A DNA stretch of 50,000 bases. Source: Acetomicrobium flavidum (GTDB taxonomy: Bacteria > Synergistota > Synergistia > Synergistales > Acetomicrobiaceae). A program made the translations under genes and the position numbers. Position 1 is the first letter of the stretch. Each line of letters opens with the position of its first letter. This document shows, in pieces, positions 39,119 to 50,000 of this stretch. The notes under the pieces were generated by a model, which was given only the letters and a program-made list of their open reading frames with translations, was not told the DNA's origin and did not search any database. Location of the stretch: contig NZ_FSQZ01000001.1 in the NCBI RefSeq assembly GCF_900129645.1, positions 1,395,001-1,445,000 of the forward strand, given 5' to 3'.

Positions 39119-40579
39119 TTGAGAAACGTCAGATCTAAAAGCTCGCTTGTCTTTTGGTCGTCTTGCGTTGTGGCATTAGCAATCCTTATATGTGGTTTGA
39201 TTTTTTTGGGAAAGCCTCTTCGAGAGGAAGCAGCGATTAATGCACTGCCGATTCCCGAAGAAGGAGAACCTTACGTGTTGTATGTCGAGGAAGGATCGAC
39301 TCTGCTTCATATTAAAGAAACGGTTGCCGTTGACAACCTCCTGTCATTGGTTTTGTCGATCAAGGATGTCAACTTTAAATCTGTCGATATGTTGTTATCC
39401 ATGCTCGAGGGCTCAAAAAACACTGCTTGTCTGGTGTTGCCCAGGGATAGGAAATTTTATCTGGCAATTAAACCCGATCATGAAATCTTGCATACTATAT
39501 CTTTGGGCAAGTTGCCAGCCAAGTGGATAGAGGCATATCCTGATGTTAGTTATGAATTCGTCGATGGAATCGTGAAGGTAAACACATCTCAATCGAATCC
39601 TATCTTGATTTTGCCCTATAGGGATATCCTTTTAGTGTCGTCGTCAATGGATGATTTGGACATAATGAAACATAACCTGGACAATGAAAGGGATATATCC
39701 TCCTTCGAATGGCTTGTACAGGGGGAATGGTCAGGACGTTTGAGGTGCAATGTTCCAGCAAATATCCAAGGAGAGTTAGCGTGGATTTGCGATGATAAAA
39801 AGTTAAATGCCAAATGGAAAATCCAGGGCATCGAGGGGCTTTTATCCAAAGAGCAAGTAAGTTTGCCTCGTCCCGAGAAATGGTCAGGGAATTATATCCT
39901 CCCGTCTCAAAGTTCGCTTGCCCTAGGGCTTACCATGATTGACACGCCACAGTTAGCGAAAGGAGTCTCGTCATTGGCAGGCACATTGGGTGTAAATCCG
40001 GATAAATTGTTAGAATTTTTAAGAGGTCAGGTCATTTTCTCTTTGGGCGGCGAAGCCAACGTCTTCACGTTTAATTTGCCAGGAGTGCTCTTTCAGTTTC
40101 CGAACAGGAAGGAGTTAGGTAAAGAAATAGTAGATTATATATGGGAAAACAGGCTTCAAAGTTTATTGATCAACAGAAGTCCTTTGGAGGGCTTTGAGAG
40201 TGGAGGGGTTATTGAGCTCCCGGTTTCCTTGGTATTGGCCTCTAGTGAGGAGATGACCTTGCTTGGCCTTATCTCGAATGATGCCATCTTGAATGGCCTT
40301 ACGTTAGATAGAGCGCTTCCTGCAGTTGCCGGAAAGGAATATATATTTTGGGCTGACGTGGATTTTCGCTCAATTGCCGCAGATATAGAAAGGCTTCTCT
40401 CTGTAAACAAGGCTTTTAATACCCAAGTGTCAGCCGGAATTGGTATCCGGGAGAATTTCAGTAAGCTATACAAGGCCATTGAAACGCTAAAAAATGCAGG
40501 GCATCTCTTCATGGGATTGCAGAGCATTACCGATGGAGAGCTGTTGTGGCAATATAAAAGCCCGCAGGCGAATAATTGA
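39119..40579 (+). CDS. Large signal-anchored extracytoplasmic protein of unknown function
   Basis: 486-aa protein. It has a basic start, one hydrophobic anchor (about residues 9-31, LVFWSSCVVALAILICGLIF), then a soluble region without membrane spans, so most of it lies outside the cytoplasmic membrane. The body has repeated strand-rich pieces (PYVLYVEEGSTL; SFEWLVQGEWSG; GSLAGTLGVNPDKLLEFLRGQ-like segment). The style resembles DUF3352-type envelope proteins, but I cannot confirm this. The TTG at 39119 is preferred since GGGAGGG lies about 6 nt upstream; ATG 39098 has no RBS. tyrS begins 75 nt after the stop. It would suit a periplasmic structural or chaperone role. Confidence 0.65.
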   Translation: MRNVRSKSSLVFWSSCVVALAILICGLIFLGKPLREEAAINALPIPEEGEPYVLYVEEGSTLLHIKETVAVDNLLSLVLSIKDVNFKSVDMLLSMLEGSKNTACLVLPRDRKFYLAIKPDHEILHTISLGKLPAKWIEAYPDVSYEFVDGIVKVNTSQSNPILILPYRDILLVSSSMDDLDIMKHNLDNERDISSFEWLVQGEWSGRLRCNVPANIQGELAWICDDKKLNAKWKIQGIEGLLSKEQVSLPRPEKWSGNYILPSQSSLALGLTMIDTPQLAKGVSSLAGTLGVNPDKLLEFLRGQVIFSLGGEANVFTFNLPGVLFQFPNRKELGKEIVDYIWENRLQSLLINRSPLEGFESGGVIELPVSLVLASSEEMTLLGLISNDAILNGLTLDRALPAVAGKEYIFWADVDFRSIAADIERLLSVNKAFNTQVSAGIGIRENFSKLYKAIETLKNAGHLFMGLQSITDGELLWQYKSPQANN

Positions 40580-40654
40580 TAAATTGATGCAATTTGCATT
40601 TAACTGTTTTTCAAGGATAATTAGGATGATTAAATTTTTTCAGGAGGAATATCG

Positions 40655-41935
40655 ATGCCGAAGGATGTTGTTCAGATCTTACAAGAACGGGGATTTATGG
40701 AATGGTGCAGCGATCCGGAGGAACTGTCAACTGTTTTTAAGGCAAGGCTTGTATCTGGGTATATAGGGTTCGATCCGACAGCTGATAGCCTCCATGTGGG
40801 ACATCTTGTGCCCATAATGGGATTGGCCTGGTTGCAACGCGCCGGACATCAGCCAATAGCCGTTGCAGGGGGCGGCACAGGGTTGATCGGAGATCCCTCC
40901 GGGAAGACCAAAGAAAGGCAGCTCTTGACGCTGGAGCAGGTCGAGAGCAACATGGCTTCAATCAAAAAGCAGATCGAGCATTTCCTCGATTTTAATTGTG
41001 GCGAGTCGTCGGCAAAAATTGTCAATAATTATACTTGGCTGTCCAAGTTGGGATTGCTTGAATTCTTGAGAGATATAGGGAAATACTTTACGGTCAACTT
41101 CATGATCGCCCGTGATTACGTAAAGACTCGGCTTGAGGACCCAGATAAGTTCATTACATACACAGAGTTTTCCTATATACTCCTTCAGGCATATGATTTT
41201 TATCACCTATATAAACATGAAAATTGTATCCTGCAGATGGGAGGAAATGACCAACAGGTAAACATAATTGCCGGCATTGATCTGATCAGGAAAAAGCTTG
41301 GGGGGAAGGCTTACGGCCTTACGTATCCCTTGCTTTTGACGGCTTCTGGCCAAAAGTTCGGGAAGACGGAGGAGGGCACGGTGTGGCTTTCGCCTTCGCG
41401 CACGACGCCTTACAAGTTTTATCAGTACTGGATAAATACTGATGATCGTGATGTGCCTAAATTCTTAAAGCTCTTCACTTTTCTTCCTCTTGATGAAATT
41501 GATTCGATAATGGCAGAACATAACGATCATCCCGAAATGCGACTGGCCCAAAGAAAGCTTGCTTACGAGGTGACGCGCGTTGTTCATGGCGATAAGGCAG
41601 TAGAAAGGGTTAAGAAGGTCAGTGAGATTCTTTTCGGGGAATCCTATACCCTTGAGGATCTTACCCAAGATTTACTGGAGGAGATAAGGCTGGAAGTGCC
41701 AAGCGGTCATGCCAGCGAAGTCCCTTCCTCCTTAGTGGATATAATGACAAAAGTTGGTGCTTGTTCCAGTAAAAGCGAGGCTCGTAGGTTGATTCGAAGC
41801 GGAGCTGTCACCATAAACGGCGAGAAAGTTCTCGATGAAAATTGTATGGTTTCCGAGAATGACTTTCTGTATGGGAAATACCTGCTGTTAAAGCTTGGGA
41901 AAAAGAGGTATCATTTAATAGAGCTTAATAGGTAA
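40655..41935 (+). CDS. tyrS: Tyrosyl-tRNA synthetase
   Basis: 426-aa class I synthetase of the bacterial TyrS type. It has the HIGH-like motif LHVGHLVP (about residues 48-55), GDPSGKTKERQ, the tyrosine site QMGGNDQQVN, and the KMSKS counterpart KFGKTEEG (about 233). The C-terminal S4 RNA-binding domain (about 350-412) reads SSLVDIMTKVGACSSKSEARRLI. It charges tRNA-Tyr. The ATG has CAGGAGG at the correct distance. The 75-nt leader is too short to hold a T-box, so that form of control is unlikely. A Mop-type gene follows 52 nt later. Confidence 0.97.
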   Translation: MPKDVVQILQERGFMEWCSDPEELSTVFKARLVSGYIGFDPTADSLHVGHLVPIMGLAWLQRAGHQPIAVAGGGTGLIGDPSGKTKERQLLTLEQVESNMASIKKQIEHFLDFNCGESSAKIVNNYTWLSKLGLLEFLRDIGKYFTVNFMIARDYVKTRLEDPDKFITYTEFSYILLQAYDFYHLYKHENCILQMGGNDQQVNIIAGIDLIRKKLGGKAYGLTYPLLLTASGQKFGKTEEGTVWLSPSRTTPYKFYQYWINTDDRDVPKFLKLFTFLPLDEIDSIMAEHNDHPEMRLAQRKLAYEVTRVVHGDKAVERVKKVSEILFGESYTLEDLTQDLLEEIRLEVPSGHASEVPSSLVDIMTKVGACSSKSEARRLIRSGAVTINGEKVLDENCMVSENDFLYGKYLLLKLGKKRYHLIELNR

Positions 41936-41987
41936 GCGGGACTCAGGATCAGTGTTTTACTAGACTTTGATAAAGGGGTGATGTCCT

Positions 41988-42197
41988 GTGAAATTAAGTG
42001 CCAGAAACATGTTAAAGGGAAAAATTATAAAGATCGTTCCTGGGGCCGTAAACTCTGAGATTACATTAGAACTTCCCGGAGGACAGCAGGTGGTCTCTAT
42101 CATCACCAAGGCTTCTGCGGAAAGATTAGGATTAAAAGAAGGAATGGAAGCTTACGCTGTGATAAAAGCTTCTGAGGTCATGATAGCTGTCGACTAG
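41988..42197 (+). CDS. Mop/TOBE-type molybdopterin- or molybdate-binding protein
   Basis: 69-aa protein, the size of the clostridial molbindins. The single TOBE/Mop domain reads SARNMLKGKIIKIVPGAVNS, then TLELPGGQQVVSIIT, then SAERLGLKEGMEAYAVIKASEVMI. Molbindins form hexamers that store or buffer molybdate/tungstate. It fits with the molybdenum-cofactor genes at 4.1-6.7 kb, although 35 kb apart. The start is GTG at 41988 behind AAAGGGGTGATG. It is followed by a terminator-type palindrome. Confidence 0.9.
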   Translation: MKLSARNMLKGKIIKIVPGAVNSEITLELPGGQQVVSIITKASAERLGLKEGMEAYAVIKASEVMIAVD

Positions 42198-42240
42198 GAG
42201 ATATTGTGAACGTCGCAATCATCGTGGAACTGGTTGCTAT

Positions 42241-42276
42241 AAAATAGAGCAGGAAGGCGCCTTCCTGCTCTATTTT
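42241..42276 (+). terminator. Perfect 36-bp palindrome, terminator after the Mop gene
   Basis: Positions 42241-42258 and 42259-42276 are exact inverted copies with no separating bases; the loop would be GCGC or larger. The core AGAGCAGGAAGGC is followed by a T-rich tail. It lies only 30 nt before the next start codon. Confidence 0.85.
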
Positions 42277-42306
42277 TGACAAAACAAAACGAGGAGAAAG
42301 GAAGTC

Positions 42307-43158
42307 ATGAGTGTAGTAGCAACAGCAATAAAAGGTGTCCATTTTCTTGTTAAGCCGGGCATAAGTGCAAATATATTGGCATATCTGCTTTATAGATTGG
42401 CCTGCACTTTCGGAATTCGTAGAAATGTCGCTTTGACAAACTTGGGGATAGCCTATCCGGAAAGTGACCCTTCCTGGAGAAGAGAAGTAGTGAAAAAGCT
42501 GTATTTCAATCTTTCTTTATCGGTGATGGAATTTCTCATCTTGACCAAAAACCCTAAAGCTGTTTCCAAATGGGTCACAAAGGTAGAAGGGGAAGAGCAT
42601 CTCGAAAATCTCTCAAAGAGCGGGAGAGGGGCTGTGCTTTTGACTGCACATGTGGGAAATTGGGAGCTATTGGCAGCCTGGTTGGCATGTAAAGGTTATC
42701 CCCTAGTCGCTGGGGTCCGAGATCCGAACGATGTGCATGTTTCTAAATTGTTGGCCTATTATAGGAAAGCCTTAGGCGTGGAGACGATACCCAAGAAAAG
42801 CTTATTGTTAAAGGGTGCTAAATTATTAAAACAAGGCAAGTTCATTGGGATCTTGGCGGACCAGGATGGGGGGACTGACGGTATAAGGGTTTCCTTTATG
42901 GGTAAAGTTGCAAGCACTGTAGGAGGGCCAGCTGCCTTAAGTTTGCTTACGAAGGCTCCAGTCGTTCCGATCGTTTCCTATAGAATTGCTCCCTATGAAC
43001 ATGAAATCTTAGTTTTGCCCCCCATAGAGCCTCTTTATGAGTTGCCAAGAGAGGAAGCCATAAGAGAGATGACTATAAAATTTAACGATATTTTAGAGGG
43101 CTTCATAAGGAGATCTTCTGAGCAGTGGCTATGGCTCCATAGGCGTTGGAGAGATTAA
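42307..43158 (+). CDS. Lysophospholipid/lipid A acyltransferase family protein (LpxL/HtrB-like)
   Basis: 283-aa acyltransferase. The catalytic H-x4-E motif is HVGNWE (about residue 117), preceded by RGAVLLTA. A second conserved stretch is GKFIGILADQDGG (about 177-190), then AALSLLTKAPVVPI, and the C-terminus WLWLHRRWRD is diagnostic of LpxL/LpxM enzymes. They add the secondary acyl chains of lipid A at the inner membrane, so an outer membrane with LPS is likely. The N-terminal hydrophobic helix (FLVKPGISANILAYLLYRL) is the expected membrane anchor. The RBS is AGGAGAAAGGAAG. It is not in an obvious operon: a terminator lies 30 nt upstream. Confidence 0.9.
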   Translation: MSVVATAIKGVHFLVKPGISANILAYLLYRLACTFGIRRNVALTNLGIAYPESDPSWRREVVKKLYFNLSLSVMEFLILTKNPKAVSKWVTKVEGEEHLENLSKSGRGAVLLTAHVGNWELLAAWLACKGYPLVAGVRDPNDVHVSKLLAYYRKALGVETIPKKSLLLKGAKLLKQGKFIGILADQDGGTDGIRVSFMGKVASTVGGPAALSLLTKAPVVPIVSYRIAPYEHEILVLPPIEPLYELPREEAIREMTIKFNDILEGFIRRSSEQWLWLHRRWRD

Positions 43159-43232
43159 ATTTAGTTTGGGCTTGTTTCCAGCGCAATATAAAGGTAAACT
43201 TATGTTAGGAAGTAGAGGGGGTGAAGCGCAAT

Positions 43233-44177
43233 ATGCGCTTATATGAATTGATGTCTTCGGGTGAGATAGTGAGGTTACCTGACAGCGACTCCGTTGCGGG
43301 TATACCGACGGAGTTCTCCCCCCTCGTTGCGCTTTTTATGCCTTTTAATAGGGTATTAATTGGCAGTGCTTTTTGCAAGAGCTATGAAGTGTGGCGTTGG
43401 GGTAAAATGGGAAGCTATGAGTGGAATGAAGTTACGTTATGTCGTGATAGGCCGAAATTCTTCGACCTGGGCTTGCTGGGCAAGATTTTACTAACAAAAG
43501 ACTCTGTCAATTCCCTACGTAAGGGATTGCTTGAACTTTTGGAGCCGCCCGGAGATCATGAAATGACCGTTTCCATTCTGCAGAATATAATGAAAAGGCG
43601 GATAGCTACTGATAAAAAAGGCGAAATAATAAAACCCTATGGCCACAATCTCGAAAGCAGCGTTAAAGATATCACCCTAGAGATGGCCTATTGGGGTCTA
43701 AGATGGGCTTTGTTGTGGAATATGACTGAATCCGTATCTCGTATCCAGATATGGCTTTCACGATCTCTTGATGTTTTGAACCCTTCCTATACGTCTCCAC
43801 CTCCCATGTGGTTTTCGTTGTCCAAGTTTCCCGATGAATCGGTTTTGCAGCAGTGGGAAGAGGAGGGGTTTGTTGCCGATCAGCTCAAGCATTTTGAACT
43901 AAGCGAAAGTAATCCCACGGTGATAAAAGGTTTAGATTCATATCTATTGCGCTACATTTATCGTTTTAAGGAGATATTCGAAGCCCAATCTCTATACGTA
44001 TGGCTTAGTTTGAGCGTGCCGTTATGGGAAGATTTGCGCAGCAGGTGCTTGCTTTCCTTGTCAGAGGTTTTACTGGCCTGTTGGGGTTTTAAAGACGCCG
44101 TAGATGCAGCAAACGAGATGATGCTGTATGGCAGAAGCGCTAGGGAAATGGGCAACTTGATGGTCATCAGTAAATAA
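43233..44177 (+). CDS. Protein of unknown function
   Basis: 314-aa protein I do not recognise. It appears soluble and alpha-rich, with many Trp residues (KSYEVWRWGKMGSYEWNEV; YWGLRWALLWNMTESVSRIQIW; YVWLSLSVPLWEDL). No catalytic motif or cysteine cluster is seen. ATG 43233 is favoured as it lies a suitable distance from AGAGGGGG; the GTG at 43221 abuts that sequence. It follows the acyltransferase by 75 nt and precedes glpP by 122 nt on the same strand. Uninterrupted length and codon use similar to its neighbours support a real gene. Function is unknown. Confidence 0.6.
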   Translation: MRLYELMSSGEIVRLPDSDSVAGIPTEFSPLVALFMPFNRVLIGSAFCKSYEVWRWGKMGSYEWNEVTLCRDRPKFFDLGLLGKILLTKDSVNSLRKGLLELLEPPGDHEMTVSILQNIMKRRIATDKKGEIIKPYGHNLESSVKDITLEMAYWGLRWALLWNMTESVSRIQIWLSRSLDVLNPSYTSPPPMWFSLSKFPDESVLQQWEEEGFVADQLKHFELSESNPTVIKGLDSYLLRYIYRFKEIFEAQSLYVWLSLSVPLWEDLRSRCLLSLSEVLLACWGFKDAVDAANEMMLYGRSAREMGNLMVISK

Positions 44178-44202
44178 CCAATGGGACAAATAACATTTTA
44201 AG

Positions 44203-44231
44203 TTGCATACTGTTGTTGCACTTGGTAAAAT
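44203..44231 (+). promoter_or_regulatory. Promoter for glpP and the glycerol operon
   Basis: TTGCAT (44203-44208), a 17-nt spacer and TAAAAT (44226-44231) lie about 70 nt before the glpP start. The leader contains a small stem CCGCTG-AAA-CAGCGG (44262-44276). Confidence 0.65.
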
Positions 44232-44299
44232 AAATAACGGAAAATTAGCAAAGTTAGTTGTCCGCTGAAACAGCGGGTAACGTATAAGGGAGTTATGTG

Positions 44300-44875
44300 A
44301 TGTCTGGGCTGAGTGACCTAAAAAACCTATTACAAAAAAATCCCATAATACCTGCTTTGAGGTCTAGCAAGGATGTCGAGGCAGCCTTGAAGATAACGCC
44401 AAGATGCGTATTTGTCCTTGAATCCTCCATTTACACCCTAAAAAACGTAGTGGATAGCCTAAGAGAAAGGGGACATTTCGTATTCGTCCATGCTGATTTA
44501 ATAGAAGGGCTAAAAACGGATCCCTCGGGAATAAGGTTTTTAGCACGCGAAATTAACCCTGAAGGCTTGATAACGACCCATAAAAATGTTCTCGAGATCG
44601 CTAAAGATCTGAATTTGCTCACTATACTGCGTATCTTTCTGCTCGATTCCCAGGCCTTCAAGAAAGGCAAACAGCTAGCTTACAATGTGAATCCTGATTT
44701 CATTGAGGTGCTCCCCGGCATTTCTGTGATTGCCGTGGATGAACCTATTTTGAAGGAAATTCCGTTTCCATTAATTGCTGGCGGGCTGATAAAGACGCTA
44801 GATCAGGTAAATAAAATATTATCAAGGGGGATTTTAGCCGTTTCTACGAGCGAAAGAGCTTTGTGGGAGCAATGA
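44300..44875 (+). CDS. glpP: Glycerol-responsive antiterminator regulator GlpP
   Basis: 191-aa GlpP-family protein. It shows the family order: IIPALRSSKDVEAAL at the N-terminus, FVLESSIYTLKNVVDSL, FVHADLIEGL, GLITTHKNVLEIAK, RIFLLDSQAF, PDFIEVLPG, and LIAGGLIKTLDQVNKILSRG. In Bacillus subtilis GlpP, with glycerol-3-phosphate, binds leader RNA of glp genes and lets RNA polymerase pass terminators. The normal length and full motif set suggest it works here. ATG 44300 is chosen by spacing to AAGGGAG. It directly precedes the dhaKLM-glpK genes, and a terminator-like hairpin lies between glpP and dhaK. Confidence 0.92.
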   Translation: MSGLSDLKNLLQKNPIIPALRSSKDVEAALKITPRCVFVLESSIYTLKNVVDSLRERGHFVFVHADLIEGLKTDPSGIRFLAREINPEGLITTHKNVLEIAKDLNLLTILRIFLLDSQAFKKGKQLAYNVNPDFIEVLPGISVIAVDEPILKEIPFPLIAGGLIKTLDQVNKILSRGILAVSTSERALWEQ

Positions 44876-44926
44876 ATAGGGCAATAACGAAAAATTCGTT
44901 ACAAATTTTTACTGGGCACAGAGACA

Positions 44927-44974
44927 AAAAGAGAAAGCCTAGCATATGTTGTCATATGGCGTGCTTTCTCTTTT
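44927..44974 (+). terminator. Terminator-like hairpin in the dhaK leader, possible GlpP target
   Basis: AAAAGAGAAAGC (44927-44938) pairs with GCTTTCTCTTTT (44963-44974), with an inner CATATG/CATATG stem (44943-44948, 44953-44958) across a short mispaired gap. The 3' arm ends in TTTT. It lies 51 nt after glpP and 43 nt before the dhaK ATG. No convincing promoter fits between hairpin and dhaK, so dhaK transcription probably has to read through it. Confidence 0.65.
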
Positions 44975-45017
44975 ATTATGATGAAATGTTATTACACTTG
45001 AGGAGGTGGAACTGAAA

Positions 45018-46016
45018 ATGAAAAAGCTCATCAACGATGTTGAAAAAGTAGTTGAGGAATCTCTTAGCGGCTTGGTCAAGGCTCATGCGGATCTCATCAA
45101 ATTGCATCCGTCAGCGAGGGCGGTGCTCAGGGTTGACTCCCCCAAGGAAAAGGTTGCAGTCATTTCTGGAGGTGGCAGCGGTCACGAGCCCATGCACACT
45201 GGCTATGTTGGTTACGGCATGCTTGATGCTGCATGCCCCGGTGAGATATTTACCTCTCCGACCCCAGACCAGATGTATGAGGCAGCAAAGGCAGTCAACG
45301 GTGGAAAGGGAATTTTATTCATCGTCAAGAACTACAGCGGAGATATCATGAACTTCCAAATGGCTGCCGATATGCTGGCTGCCGAAGGGATACCCGTGGA
45401 ACAGGTTGTCATCAACGACGATGTAGCGGTGGAAAATTCCTTATATACTGCTGGCAGGCGTGGCGTAGGTGGCACCGTTTTGGCCGAAAAGATAGTGGGG
45501 GCCAAAGCGGAAGAGGGAGGATCGCTTGAAGAGGTTAAAAGTTTGTGCGAGCGCGTCAATGCCAACGTGCGTTCGATGGGCATGGCCCTCACGCCCTGCA
45601 CGGTTCCTGCTGCAGGAAAGCCAACATTTGAGCTTGGACCCGACGAGATTGAAATAGGCATAGGAATTCACGGTGAGCCGGGCAGGCATCGCATGAAGCT
45701 GAAGCCGGCCAGAGAGATAGTAGAAATGCTTGCGACTCCGATAGTAGATGACCTTCCCTTTAAGGCTGGGGATGAGGTGTTGGCCTTTGTCAATGGAATG
45801 GGCGGAACGCCTTTATCTGAGCTTTACATCGTTTACAACGATTTGAGCGATTTTCTGGAAAAGAAGGGAATCAAGATAGTAAGAAATTTGGTTGGAAATT
45901 ATATCACCAGCTTAGAAATGCAGGGATGCTCCATAACGCTTTTACGTCTTGACGATGAAATGAAGCGCTTGTGGGACGCTCCCGTTTGCACGCCAGGGCT
46001 TAGATGGGGGATGTAG
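45018..46016 (+). CDS. dhaK: Dihydroxyacetone kinase subunit DhaK
   Basis: 332-aa PTS-dependent DhaK. The substrate loop [18 protein letters not shown] (about residues 48-65) and the His that binds dihydroxyacetone covalently in [13 protein letters not shown] (about residue 218) are intact. With DhaL and DhaM it makes dihydroxyacetone phosphate using PEP as the phosphate source. ATG 45018 is set by AGGAGGTG nine bases upstream; the GTG at 45006 overlaps that site. dhaL starts 4 nt after the stop. Dihydroxyacetone would come from glycerol by a dehydrogenase not present in the window. Confidence 0.95.
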
Positions 46017-46020
46017 AAAG

Positions 46021-46662
46021 TTGGATAACGAGCATCTGGATGTCACTAAAGCAGTCGCCATTGTTGAAAACATAAAAGAAATTATAGATGCTAACAAGGA
46101 GTTTTTGACGAAACTTGACTCTGCCATAGGCGACGCCGACCATGGCATCAACATGAGCAGAGGCTTTACAAAGGCTCTCGAGAAAGTGCGAAATAACCAG
46201 TACAACGATATAGGGGCAGTATTCAAAGATGTCGCAATGACGTTAATGAGCACCGTTGGCGGAGCGGCAGGGCCACTTTACGGTACTTTCTTCATGAGAG
46301 CTTCGATGAAGCTCGCTGGCCAAAAAGAGGCAGATCTGACGTTGTTAGCTCAGGCCTTTCGCGAGGGGTTACAGGGCGTTGTGGCATTAGGCAAAGCTCA
46401 GTTAGGCGATAAGACGATGGTAGATGCTCTTACGCCTGCCATAGAAGCCTTGGAGGCCGCAGCAAAGCAGGGATTGCCCTTGAAGGAAGGGTTAAAGAGA
46501 GCGCTTGATATGGCTGAGAAGGGAATGAAGGATACAATTCCGTTGGTGGCGAGGAAGGGCCGTGCAAGTTATTTAGGCGAGAGGTCTGCAGGACATCAGG
46601 ATCCAGGGGCTACGTCCAGCTATCTAATTTTAAAGGCCATTTGCGAAGCCTTGGGGGTTTAG
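46021..46662 (+). CDS. dhaL: Dihydroxyacetone kinase ADP-binding subunit DhaL
   Basis: 213-aa DhaL. The Mg-ADP site appears as SAIGDADHGINMSRGF (about residues 32-47), with TVGGAAGPLYGTFF (about 80-93) and GERSAGHQDPGATSSY near the end. In the PTS-linked enzyme ADP is a permanently bound cofactor, rephosphorylated by DhaM and transferring phosphate to dihydroxyacetone on DhaK. It begins with TTG, four bases after the dhaK stop, behind GGGGGATG. Length matches the family. It is translated in a tight dhaK-dhaL-dhaM set. Confidence 0.95.
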   Translation: MDNEHLDVTKAVAIVENIKEIIDANKEFLTKLDSAIGDADHGINMSRGFTKALEKVRNNQYNDIGAVFKDVAMTLMSTVGGAAGPLYGTFFMRASMKLAGQKEADLTLLAQAFREGLQGVVALGKAQLGDKTMVDALTPAIEALEAAAKQGLPLKEGLKRALDMAEKGMKDTIPLVARKGRASYLGERSAGHQDPGATSSYLILKAICEALGV

Positions 46663-46666
46663 AGCT

Positions 46667-47068
46667 ATGATAGGGATTCTCGTCGTTTGCCATAGTTTTA
46701 AGGCAGCTGATGGAATCGTGGAAATTGCCTCTCAGATGGCAGGCGAAAAGGTGAGGGTAGTAGGGGTAGGCGGAAATGAAGAAGGGGGCCTGGGAACTTC
46801 TACTGCAAATATATATGAGGGATTGGATAAACTTTTGATGGAATGTGATGGCGTTGTCGTTATACCGGATCTCGGAAGCGCCGTCTTGTCGACTAAGGCT
46901 GCGTTGGATTTCTTGCCCGAAGATCAAAAAAGTAAAGTCGTTATTGCCGATGCTCCCGTTTTAGAGGGGACCGTTCTGGCCTCCGTCGAGGCAAGCACGG
47001 GATCTCCGGTTGAAAAGGTAAGGCAGGTTGCGGAGAGCGCACACTTGCTAAAAAAGTTGACCAATTAA
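46667..47068 (+). CDS. dhaM: PTS-type phosphotransfer subunit DhaM (EIIA-only form)
   Basis: 133-aa protein of the mannose-type EIIA fold. The active-site His is in VVCHSFKAADG (H9 in IGILVVCHS), followed by GVGGNEEGGLGTSTANI and VVVIPDLGSA. It carries phosphate from HPr to DhaL-bound ADP. E. coli DhaM has extra HPr- and EI-like domains; this is the short form found in Gram-positive organisms, so PTS EI and HPr must be supplied from elsewhere in the genome. It starts four bases after the dhaL stop, and glpK follows after 29 nt. Confidence 0.9.
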   Translation: MIGILVVCHSFKAADGIVEIASQMAGEKVRVVGVGGNEEGGLGTSTANIYEGLDKLLMECDGVVVIPDLGSAVLSTKAALDFLPEDQKSKVVIADAPVLEGTVLASVEASTGSPVEKVRQVAESAHLLKKLTN

Positions 47069-47097
47069 AATAATCAAAATAAAGGGAGGAGATCGGG

Positions 47098-48609
47098 ATG
47101 GCAAAGAAATATGTTGCTGCTATTGATCAGGGGACTACCAGTACGAGGTGTATGATATTCGACAGGGAAGGCAATCCGATATCCAGCAGCCAGATGGAGC
47201 ATGAACAAATTTACCCTCATCCTGGCTGGGTAGAACACGATCCCATGGAGATCTGGTCGCGTACGCAAGACGTAATTAGAGGGGCATTGGAGAAAGGCAA
47301 TGTAGATCCCAATGACATTGCGGCAATCGGCATAACGAACCAAAGGGAAACGACGGTAGTATGGGATAAAAATACAGGTAAACCCGTCTATAATGCAATC
47401 GTTTGGCAATGCATGAGGACTCAGGATTTCTGTCTGGAATGGGAGAAAGAGCCAGGCGCGAACGAAAAGGTCAATCAAAAGACTGGCCTTGTGATAAGCA
47501 CCTATTTCTCGGGTCCCAAGATCAAGTGGATCTTAGACAACGTTCCCGGCGCCAGGGAAAGGGCCCAAAAGGGAGAGCTGCTTTTCGGAAACATAGATAC
47601 ATGGGTAATTTGGAATCTAACGGGCGGTCCGAACGGCGGGGTTCATGTAACCGATGTCAGCAATGCGTCCAGGACTATGCTCATGAATATCAAAACGCTG
47701 CAATGGGACGAGGAAATGCTGAATTTCTTGGGCATTCCGAAATCCATGTTACCAGAGATCAAACCAAGCAGCCATATTTACGGCTATACTGTCCCTAACG
47801 GACCATTCAGGGCGAGCATCCCCATTTCGGGAGATCTTGGAGACCAGCAGGCAGCGGTCTTTGGTCAAGTATGCTTCAACGTTGGCGAGGCAAAGAACAC
47901 CTACGGCACCGGAAACTTCATGCTGCTAAATATAGGCAAGACTCCAAGCCTTTCCAAGAGCGGCCTGCTTACGACAGTTGCTTATGGCCTTAAAGAGGGA
48001 GAAGCTGTTTATGCCTTAGAGGGATCGATGGCCATTACGGGAGCTGCGATCCAGTGGCTGCGTGACAACCTGAGACTTTTTGATGATGCTGCCGATTCGG
48101 AATGGTTTGCCAGCAAGGTCAAAGATACTGGCGGGATATATTTCGTCCCGGCCTTCTCCGGATTGTTTGCACCTTATTGGGATATGAGAGCTAGAGGTTG
48201 TATAGTGGGATTGACGAGATACATTCGAAAAGAGCATTTGATCAGGGCTACCCTGGAATGCATTTGCTATCAGACCTTGGACGTCCAAAGGGCAATGGAA
48301 GCCGATTCCGGAGTGCCCCTCACGGAACTTAAAGTGGATGGCGGTGCTGTACGAAATAACCTCCTCATGCAGTTGCAGGCCGACCTCTTGGGTGTTCCGG
48401 TCGTGCGTCCAAAGGTAAATGAGACTACGGGGCTGGGTGCTGCTTATGCTGCTGGTCTTGCTACAGGTTTTTGGACGAGCTTAGACGAGCTAAAGCAAAA
48501 TTGGAAAGTTGATAAGCGGTTTGAGCCAACCATGAGCAAGGAAACGAGAGATGAAATGTACAGAGGCTGGAAGAAGGCGATTGAAAGAGCTAAGGGATGG
48601 ATAGATTAG
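47098..48609 (+). CDS. glpK: Glycerol kinase
   Basis: 503-aa FGGY-family kinase. ATP/phosphate loop [13 protein letters not shown] is at residues 10-22; [14 protein letters not shown] (about 80), [16 protein letters not shown] (about 183-198), [14 protein letters not shown] (about 243-256) and [18 protein letters not shown] (about 304) follow, with the C-terminal [11 protein letters not shown]. It makes glycerol 3-phosphate, the substrate of the next gene and the inducer of GlpP. In Firmicutes GlpK the region before this SGDxGDQQ motif carries a His phosphorylated by HPr; here that segment reads [12 protein letters not shown], with no matching His, so PTS activation is unlikely. The RBS is AAGGGAGGAG. 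A hairpin lies beyond the stop. Confidence 0.97.
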
Positions 48610-48662
48610 TATGACTTGAATGCCGAAGGGCATCAGATAAGTCTCGCGTAAGGTGCATGAGA

Positions 48663-48704
48663 GGGGAGAGAGGTGCACTGCAAGATGCGCCTTTCTCCCC
48701 TTTT
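48663..48704 (+). terminator. Terminator-like hairpin between glpK and the glycerol-3-phosphate dehydrogenase gene
   Basis: A 15-bp stem pairs GGGGAGAGAGGTGCA (48663-48677) with TGCGCCTTTCTCCCC (48686-48700), with two wobble pairs, followed by TTTT. It lies 44 nt before the next start codon, a distance almost the same as that of the dhaK leader hairpin. It may be a GlpP-controlled terminator. Confidence 0.7.
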
Positions 48705-48748
48705 AGATTCCATAGTGGGATTTTGCAAGTACTCTTGGAGGTGATTTT

Positions 48749-50000
48749 GTGAGCACGCGATATTACGATGTGATCGTAATTGGCGGCGGTATTGTGGGCT
48801 CGACAATTGCCCGCGAGTTGTCACGTTATGATGTTAGGGTAGCTGTTCTGGATAAGGCTTCAGAGCTACCCTCAGGCGCCTCTAGGGCCAATAGCGGCAT
48901 GGTTCATGCAGGTTACGACGACAAGCCTGGCACTATGAAAGCTTACTTTTGTCCAAAGGGGAATGCTATTTACAGGAGCCTTTATGAGGAGCTTGATTTT
49001 ACACTTAATAAAGTAGGATCTTATGTATGCGCCTTTGCCGAAGAGGAAATAGCCCATCTTAATTTACTGCTCGATCAGGGAAGAAAAAACGGAGTTCCTT
49101 CCGTGGAGATCATAAGCGGCGACGAGCTAAGGTCGCGAGAGCCAAATGCATCTAAGGAAATTATCGCTGCCCTTTGGGCTCCTACGGGTTGCATCATAAA
49201 TAATTTCGAAGCTGTCCTGGCATTCATGGATAATGCTCAACAAAACGGGGTTGAGTTGTTTTTGGAGACTGAGGTCTTGGATGTATTGCTCTCTCAGGGC
49301 GAAAAGCAGGTTGTGGGGGTCAATACGAATAAGGGAATGTTTTTGGCTCCTATTGTCATAAACGCCGCTGGAGTGCATTCGGATAGGATAGCTAGGATGG
49401 TTGGCGATGAAAGCTTCGTCATACATCCACGACGGGGTGATTACTTCATAACGGATAAATATGTCGGAAATCTCGTCAAGAGCTTCTTTTTTGCTTGTCC
49501 TTCCGAGGCTGGCAAGGGTATAACCGTGGCTAGCACAGCAGATCACAACTTACTAATGGGACCTACTTCCATATTCCAGGTAGATCGCGATAAGACTGCG
49601 ACCACTGCAGAGGGCTTGAAGCAGGTTATTGAAGGAGCAAGGCGGCTAATACCTCCTATCCCGGTCAATATGGCCATAACTACCTTCGCTGGACTTAGGG
49701 CGGATCCAGATACAGGAGATTTTGTAATAGGGATCCTTAAAAAACCCCATGGATTTGTCAACGTCGCAGGAATCAAATCTCCAGGCTTTACCTCCGCTCC
49801 CGCGATTGCACAGCATATAGTTGAAAGAATCAAAGATGAACTAAAGGATCTTGTTGAATTCAAGCCTAACAGGAAATTTGTGCCAGAGCGTAAACATATA
49901 CCACGATTTGCATATCTCACCATGGAAGAAAGATCTGCTTTAGCAGAAAAAGACCCTAGATATGCCCAAATAGTGTGCAGATGCGAGAGCGTTACTGAGG
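48749..50000 (+). CDS. FAD-dependent glycerol-3-phosphate dehydrogenase (GlpA/GlpD-like), 3' end cut by window
   Basis: At least 417 residues, running off the right edge. The start is GTG 48749 behind CTTGGAGGTG. The N-terminal FAD fold is DVIVIGGGIVGSTIARELS (residues 7-25), followed by SGASRANSGMVHAGYDD, a GlpA/L-2-hydroxyglutarate oxidase-type signature. Near the end of the visible part, IVCRCESVTE starts a BFD-like [2Fe-2S] domain (C-x-C), found in anaerobic GlpA-type enzymes. It should oxidise glycerol 3-phosphate to dihydroxyacetone phosphate and pass electrons to a partner oxidoreductase, probably encoded downstream. L-2-hydroxyglutarate oxidase is a possible alternative, but the glycerol operon context decides for glycerol 3-phosphate. 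Confidence 0.85.
   Translation, partial: MSTRYYDVIVIGGGIVGSTIARELSRYDVRVAVLDKASELPSGASRANSGMVHAGYDDKPGTMKAYFCPKGNAIYRSLYEELDFTLNKVGSYVCAFAEEEIAHLNLLLDQGRKNGVPSVEIISGDELRSREPNASKEIIAALWAPTGCIINNFEAVLAFMDNAQQNGVELFLETEVLDVLLSQGEKQVVGVNTNKGMFLAPIVINAAGVHSDRIARMVGDESFVIHPRRGDYFITDKYVGNLVKSFFFACPSEAGKGITVASTADHNLLMGPTSIFQVDRDKTATTAEGLKQVIEGARRLIPPIPVNMAITTFAGLRADPDTGDFVIGILKKPHGFVNVAGIKSPGFTSAPAIAQHIVERIKDELKDLVEFKPNRKFVPERKHIPRFAYLTMEERSALAEKDPRYAQIVCRCESVTE

Follow-up and report, generated by a model that had tools for sequence, protein, structure and literature searches.

A candidate GlpP-dependent antitermination switch in front of dhaK in the glycerol operon of Acetomicrobium flavidum

Background

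In Acetomicrobium flavidum, the gene for the glycerol-3-phosphate-responsive antiterminator protein GlpP lies directly 5' of the genes for a PTS-type dihydroxyacetone kinase (dhaKLM), and the gap between them encodes a long RNA hairpin. An original prediction, made from the DNA alone, took this hairpin for a terminator controlled by GlpP. Is it such a switch, or an ordinary terminator that happens to follow glpP? To answer this, we analysed the 50,000-nucleotide stretch that carries the genes (the window, to which coordinates without a locus name refer) together with related genomes. The dhaK leader is, in our assessment, probably a GlpP-dependent antitermination switch (switch A).

Results

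The operon and its putative promoter

The source genome belongs to Acetomicrobium (Synergistota), and the nearest relatives of its glpP among named records come from Acetomicrobium species and a Synergistaceae MAG (75-79% protein identity). Pfam and TIGRFAM profile matches give the operon order glpP-dhaK-dhaL-dhaM-glpK-glpO, all on the forward strand. The glpP gene (44300..44875) is intact and single-copy in the genome, and its product covers the full PF04309 profile (positions 1-173, E 9.5e-59) and has PDB sequence relatives in 3KTS (E 2.9e-38) and 1VKF (E 4.3e-21), so that the gene 5' of dhaK was correctly named in the original prediction. For dhaK (45018..46016; TIGR02363, E 1.7e-151) the open reading frame list gives a GTG start at 45006, and the ATG at 45018 follows a ribosome-binding site, GAGGAGGTGG. 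Beyond it lie dhaL (46021..46662; TIGR02365, E 6e-76), dhaM, reduced to its EIIA domain (46667..47068; TIGR02364, E 1.9e-31; PF03610), the glycerol kinase gene glpK (47098..48609; TIGR01311, E 2.2e-228) and a gene for a glpO/glpA-like FAD-dependent glycerol-3-phosphate dehydrogenase (48749..50000, continuing beyond the window; PF01266), whose product scores 310 bits against NF033460, under the cut-off of 460.

A consensus scan gave no sigma-70 promoter of at least 9/12 between glpP and dhaK, in agreement with the earlier view that no usable promoter stands 3' of the hairpin. A promoter between hairpin and dhaK was rejected as the default reading, none being found at consensus level; a weak dhaK promoter without a consensus -35 may still exist. 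Upstream of glpP, visual inspection picked out a putative operon promoter (TTGCAT-N17-TAAAAT, 44203..44231) that is below the 9/12 threshold. Relatives share this -35/17 nt/-10 layout at an equal position, as TTGTAC-N17-TAGAAT in locus L002 and as TTGCAC-N17-TAGAAT in L003, L004 and L006, a promoter-like pair TTGYAY-N17-TARAAT thus occupying the matching position in three Acetomicrobium sequence groups. It therefore seems plausible that transcription of the operon begins at this pair and passes through glpP before reaching the hairpin.

Two other features were seen in this region. The gene adjoining glpP on its 5' side (43221-44177) encodes a 318-aa protein with no Pfam match, and similar sequences appear beside glpP in other Acetomicrobium, in L039 and in L010. 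The putative glpP leader contains a small perfect hairpin (CCGCTG-AAA-CAGCGG, 44262-44276), which is missing in related genomes.

Two mutually exclusive hairpins in the dhaK leader

The unconstrained fold of 44876-45017 shows a 12-bp stem, an internal loop and a 6-bp CATATG/CATATG stem, followed by UUUUAUUAU. We read it as an intrinsic terminator (44927..44983, stem 44927-44938/44963-44974, inner stem 44943-44948/44953-44958, U-rich tail), the last stem base of which (44974) lies 43 nt 5' of the dhaK ATG (45018). The fold reaches -35.7 kcal/mol, a stability that none of 200 dinucleotide shuffles matched (-24.2 +/- 2.9, z -3.94); the 12 + 6 bp hairpin 43 nt before dhaK on which the original prediction was built is thereby borne out. 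The 12-bp stem consists partly of A-tract/U-tract pairing, with a G+C-containing core formed by GAGAAAGC and GCUUUCUC, and a simple terminator scanner, confined to loops of 3-8 nt, omits the hairpin. Hairpin and tail are kept in all six Acetomicrobium genomes examined (6/6, in three distinct sequence groups).

A second, putative antiterminator hairpin (44912..44942) pairs CUGGGC (44912-44917) with GCCUAG (44937-44942) around the loop ACAGAGACAAAAAGAGAAA. This loop of 19 nt holds AGAGA twice, at 44920-44924 and 44930-44934. The 3' arm of the antiterminator overlaps the 5' arm of the terminator. When nascent RNA is folded to 44944 or to 44962, the unforced minimum-free-energy structure is the antiterminator, while full-length leader RNA folds, again unconstrained, into the terminator and not the antiterminator. 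By itself the antiterminator has little stability (about -6 to -7 kcal/mol) and would need the protein to win over the terminator.

Across the genus, TGGG, GAG and AAAAGAGAAAGCC are invariant in switch A. Conservation in the switches thus includes the antiterminator 5' arm and the first repeat, and since both lie outside the terminator stem, termination alone does not explain their conservation.

A second switch before glpO

The gap between glpK and glpO holds an intrinsic terminator (48658..48710) with a 20-bp stem (48658-48677/48686-48705) and a fold energy of -59.0 kcal/mol compared with -38.1 +/- 3.7 (z -5.6). In this switch B too, the terminator arm is overlapped by an arm of a putative antiterminator hairpin (48653..48678), in which GUGCAU (48653-48658) pairs with GUGCAC (48673-48678) around the loop GAGAGGGGAGAGAG. 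The latter hairpin is the minimum-free-energy fold of the 5' part and is kept in relatives.

In one Synergistota family, switch B of the glpO leaders L035 and L038 seems to have its own promoter, unlike in Acetomicrobium: promoter-like strings stand 5' of glpO there (TTGACG-N18-TAGTAT in L035, TATAAT in L038).

A tandem GAGA hairpin shared across phyla

Leaders of glpF, glpO, glpD and glpK near glpP in genomes of Clostridia, Bacilli, Thermotogota-like bacteria and Atribacteria share a pattern: a hairpin bearing [A/G/U]GAGA twice in a loop usually of 12-13 nt, with a 3' arm that is also the start of the terminator. We expressed this as a descriptor ([AGT]GAGA-N1-6-[AGT]GAGA, flanking stem of at least 4 bp, overlapping terminator), which on both strands of the 50 kb matches only at 44920 and 48658, that is, in the two switches, against 0.03 matches expected per shuffled window, a significance that is optimistic as the descriptor was framed after inspecting related leaders. 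An earlier version had given 34 matches in 90 loci, some of which overlap; 30 of the matches stand directly 5' of glpF, glpO, glpK or dhaK, and reversed or complemented controls gave zero.

The flanks pair much better than chance: in 48 elements collected with no stem demanded, the value is 5.58 vs 2.32 +/- 0.33 for permuted flanks. In 14 leaders from outside the Synergistota, 84.5% of cells pair vs 57% in shuffles, and covariation is strong (20 double changes vs 6.4; score 0.647 vs 0.181; 0/500); with 22 leaders, double changes number 36 vs 14.5.

When a covariance model (R1) was run on 15 whole Bacillota genomes, 12 of its 17 matches were leaders of glpF, glpD/glpO or glpT, several of them far from glpP. 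Matches again fell mostly before glp genes in a further Bacillales sample; as a pre-filter limited scoring there to 90 candidates per genome, the tally of 13 of 81 is a lower bound. The GlpP-activated promoters reported in B. subtilis have glpF, glpD and glpT as targets (PMC9604022), and this agreement between R1 targets and regulon argues that the tandem GAGA hairpin is very likely a GlpP binding site, binding itself being taken from the Bacillus literature.

No Rfam (15) family corresponds to the element: a search of window positions 40000-50000 that admitted E values up to 1 returned nothing relevant, nor did nine related loci yield a match in their leaders at the gathering score. A Thermotoga regulon study left the GlpP element aside (PMC3750489).

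Some matches depart from the usual setting. In a Halobacillus genome (G195), a strong R1 match (L147, near 1501) precedes a 116-aa protein and has no terminator, and in genome G248 another (L162, near 1501) precedes an apparent sugar- or glycerophosphate-type ABC binding protein; both are possible further GlpP targets in Bacillales. The glpO leaders of Acetobacterium, Pseudoramibacter and Eubacterium (L071, L079 and L100) carry a shortened form, GGC-AAYGGAGA-GCC, with a single GGAGA.

Divergence of the Acetomicrobium copies

Models built without Acetomicrobium do not find its switches. R1 has no match at the dhaK leader of the window, and with a second model, R2, positions 44909-44945 score only 5.1 bits (E 10), so that the window copies are not above background. 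R2 recognises the Synergistota leaders L118 (E 5e-4) and L134 (E 0.004), both members of its training set, and gave nothing clear for the remaining Synergistota leaders. Switch A has a longer loop than usual (19 nt vs about 13), and long spacings also occur in leaders of Atribacteria and Halanaerobiales (L060, L069 and L074). We read the failure of the models as divergence: the Acetomicrobium copies would work like GlpP leaders, a claim of likeness in function that stops short of strict membership in the sequence family. An R1 scan of their own genome for extra GlpP targets returned seven weak matches, of which three were inspected; all three fall inside or between unrelated genes and appear to be chance matches.

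Operon composition in relatives

The order in other Synergistota families is glpP-switch A-glpF-dhaKLM-glpK-switch B-glpO, and the arrangement, with or without glpF, is common to four families. The comparison of leaders in related genomes thus finds the switch A hairpin kept in Acetomicrobium and the synteny of glpP and switch well beyond it. The Acetomicrobium operon is without glpF, and dhaK stands first after switch A. Loss of glpF from the Acetomicrobium operon has thus brought dhaK up against the switch A leader, and the switch is linked to dhaK through the make-up of the operon. Such a leader is also present in a Bacillota MAG (L062), in an operon of the order glpP-glpF-dhaKLM-glpK. The proposed wiring of GlpP to dhaKLM was originally presented as new; our literature search found no report of it, but it is not unique to this genome, being shared by four Synergistota families and seen in L062. 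Within the phylum, full-length GlpP is present in 22 genomes vs 97 with dhaK, so most dhaK-bearing genomes are without it and the wiring is therefore confined to some lineages.

In relatives, glpO is followed in the operon by genes for a GlpB-like FAD/NAD oxidoreductase, a protein of 132 aa and HPr. In Acetomicrobium genomes where it is visible, HPr is a single match and the last gene of the operon (L112:231-548, minus strand; L135:7850-8119), and by comparison with these relatives the operon of the source genome probably ends likewise. Enzyme I of the source genome lies outside the operon (G000:C1:1483001-1483369). A single, operon-terminal HPr suggests that the phosphotransfer chain is kept mainly for the dihydroxyacetone kinase.

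The source genome has a single MIP-family channel gene (glpF-like), far from the operon (G000:C1:967037-967822; L128, start near 1495), and protein search found none in five other Acetomicrobium genomes. About 100 nt 5' of this gene, AGAGACCAAGAGA stands just after a promoter-like pair (TTGCTA-N17-TAAAAT), with no terminator; it is possibly a GlpP site without antitermination, or chance.

Discussion

A model for the leader, and other readings

The model that we favour joins computed elements (alternative hairpins, conservation, covariation and the link to glp genes) to predicted ones (promoter position and start site, GlpP binding, the effect of glycerol-3-phosphate and read-through). Transcription would start 5' of glpP, run through it and by default stop at the terminator (44927-44983). 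The hairpin made first (44912-44942) would present its two AGAGA repeats in the loop, and its 3' arm would double as a segment of the terminator 5' arm. With glycerol-3-phosphate, GlpP would bind and stabilise the AGAGA hairpin, the terminator would be blocked and dhaKLM-glpK transcribed. The second switch (48653-48710) would then gate glpO and the later genes; in relatives the last of these is the sole HPr gene of the genome, encoding the phosphate carrier required by DhaM. The original proposal of a GlpP-controlled dhaKLM leader gains from the hairpin with tandem AGAGA, which cannot coexist with the terminator, and is to be widened in scope: the predicted target is dhaKLM-glpK-glpO onward, and GlpP control likely extends to the entire glycerol operon of which dhaKLM is a part.

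The terminator shape and U tail are genuine, so the hairpin could be a constitutive terminator or partial attenuator that splits glpP from dhaKLM, dhaK being expressed by read-through or from a weak promoter of its own with no action of GlpP. The silence of R1 and R2, both external to the lineage, is consistent with this, as is a string near 44988 that resembles TG-n-TATTAC and recurs in some relatives. The scan gave no consensus promoter, however, and a start driven by TATTAC would fall within the ribosome-binding site; moreover, a plain terminator accounts neither for conservation reaching 5' of the stem, to TGGG and GAG, nor for the repetition of the arrangement before glpO and, across lineages, mostly before glp genes. 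We regard this explanation as unlikely. Even less probable, in our view, is that the leader acts mainly on mRNA stability or processing, with bound GlpP shielding the RNA 3' of it and antitermination playing little part. Stabilisation of glpD mRNA by GlpP is reported from B. subtilis, alongside binding to the antiterminator (PMC7430163; title of Glatz 1996), and the distal glpF leader of the source genome carries AGAGACCAAGAGA without a terminator. Both switches and those of relatives, however, have the arrangement expected of antitermination, with an antiterminator arm that overlaps a terminator arm.

The leader also contains a perfect 7-bp inverted repeat just 3' of glpP (TAACGAA-AAA-TTCGTTA, 44885-44901), which forms a hairpin in the RNA fold and could be taken for the operator of a DNA-binding repressor controlling the dhaK leader. 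This palindrome is not conserved in other Acetomicrobium species and adjoins no consensus promoter; it was rejected as an operator for its lack of conservation in the genus, and such a repressor is very improbable. GlpP-dependent antitermination thus stays our preferred account of switch A.

Relation to known systems

GlpP antitermination as such is already known, and the Acetomicrobium leader resembles those of B. subtilis glpD, glpFK and glpT in having a PF04309 regulator and a terminator in the leader of a glycerol gene. In Bacillales the tandem GAGA hairpin precedes the reported targets, glpF, glpD and glpT, and every GlpP target in Bacillus has its own promoter (PMC9604022). In Acetomicrobium, by contrast, glpP is in the same operon 5' of the switch, two switches stand in series, and the putative regulon adds dhaKLM and, in relatives, ptsH. 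The dhaK switch also differs from the Bacillota element in its longer loop, missed by models of that element. Gene order and both switches are shared with the Synergistota operons L035, L117, L118 and L119 (glpP-glpF-dhaKLM-glpK-glpO), where, unlike in Acetomicrobium, glpF comes first after switch A.

A protein-stabilised antiterminator hairpin overlapping a terminator, as predicted here, is also the principle of BglG/LicT/SacY-type antitermination with its RAT elements; the protein family and RNA sequence of those systems are unrelated to GlpP's. The new features are the operon content (dihydroxyacetone kinase and, in relatives, HPr), the serial switches and the diverged loop, together with an explicit, cross-phylum account of the RNA element. 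Our literature search found no paper on GlpP control of dhaKLM; the original Bacillus leader studies, beyond its reach, may partly describe the element.

Significance

We lean towards the broader view that GlpP uses a widespread, uncatalogued family of cis-acting RNAs, and that in Synergistota two serial switches place a PTS-type dihydroxyacetone kinase and the only HPr under glycerol-3-phosphate control. If so, the phosphotransfer chain for one substrate would be gated by the product of the parallel glycerol route. Acetomicrobium (Anaerobaculum) mobile ferments glycerol (PMC3739175), which makes the switch hypothesis testable. If true, it would bring dihydroxyacetone kinase and, in relatives, the sole HPr gene under a control known from the glycerol genes of Bacillus, and would define GlpP targets at a sequence level that can be searched for in other genomes. 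Switches in series would allow the kinases before switch B and the dehydrogenase after it to answer glycerol-3-phosphate with different gain.
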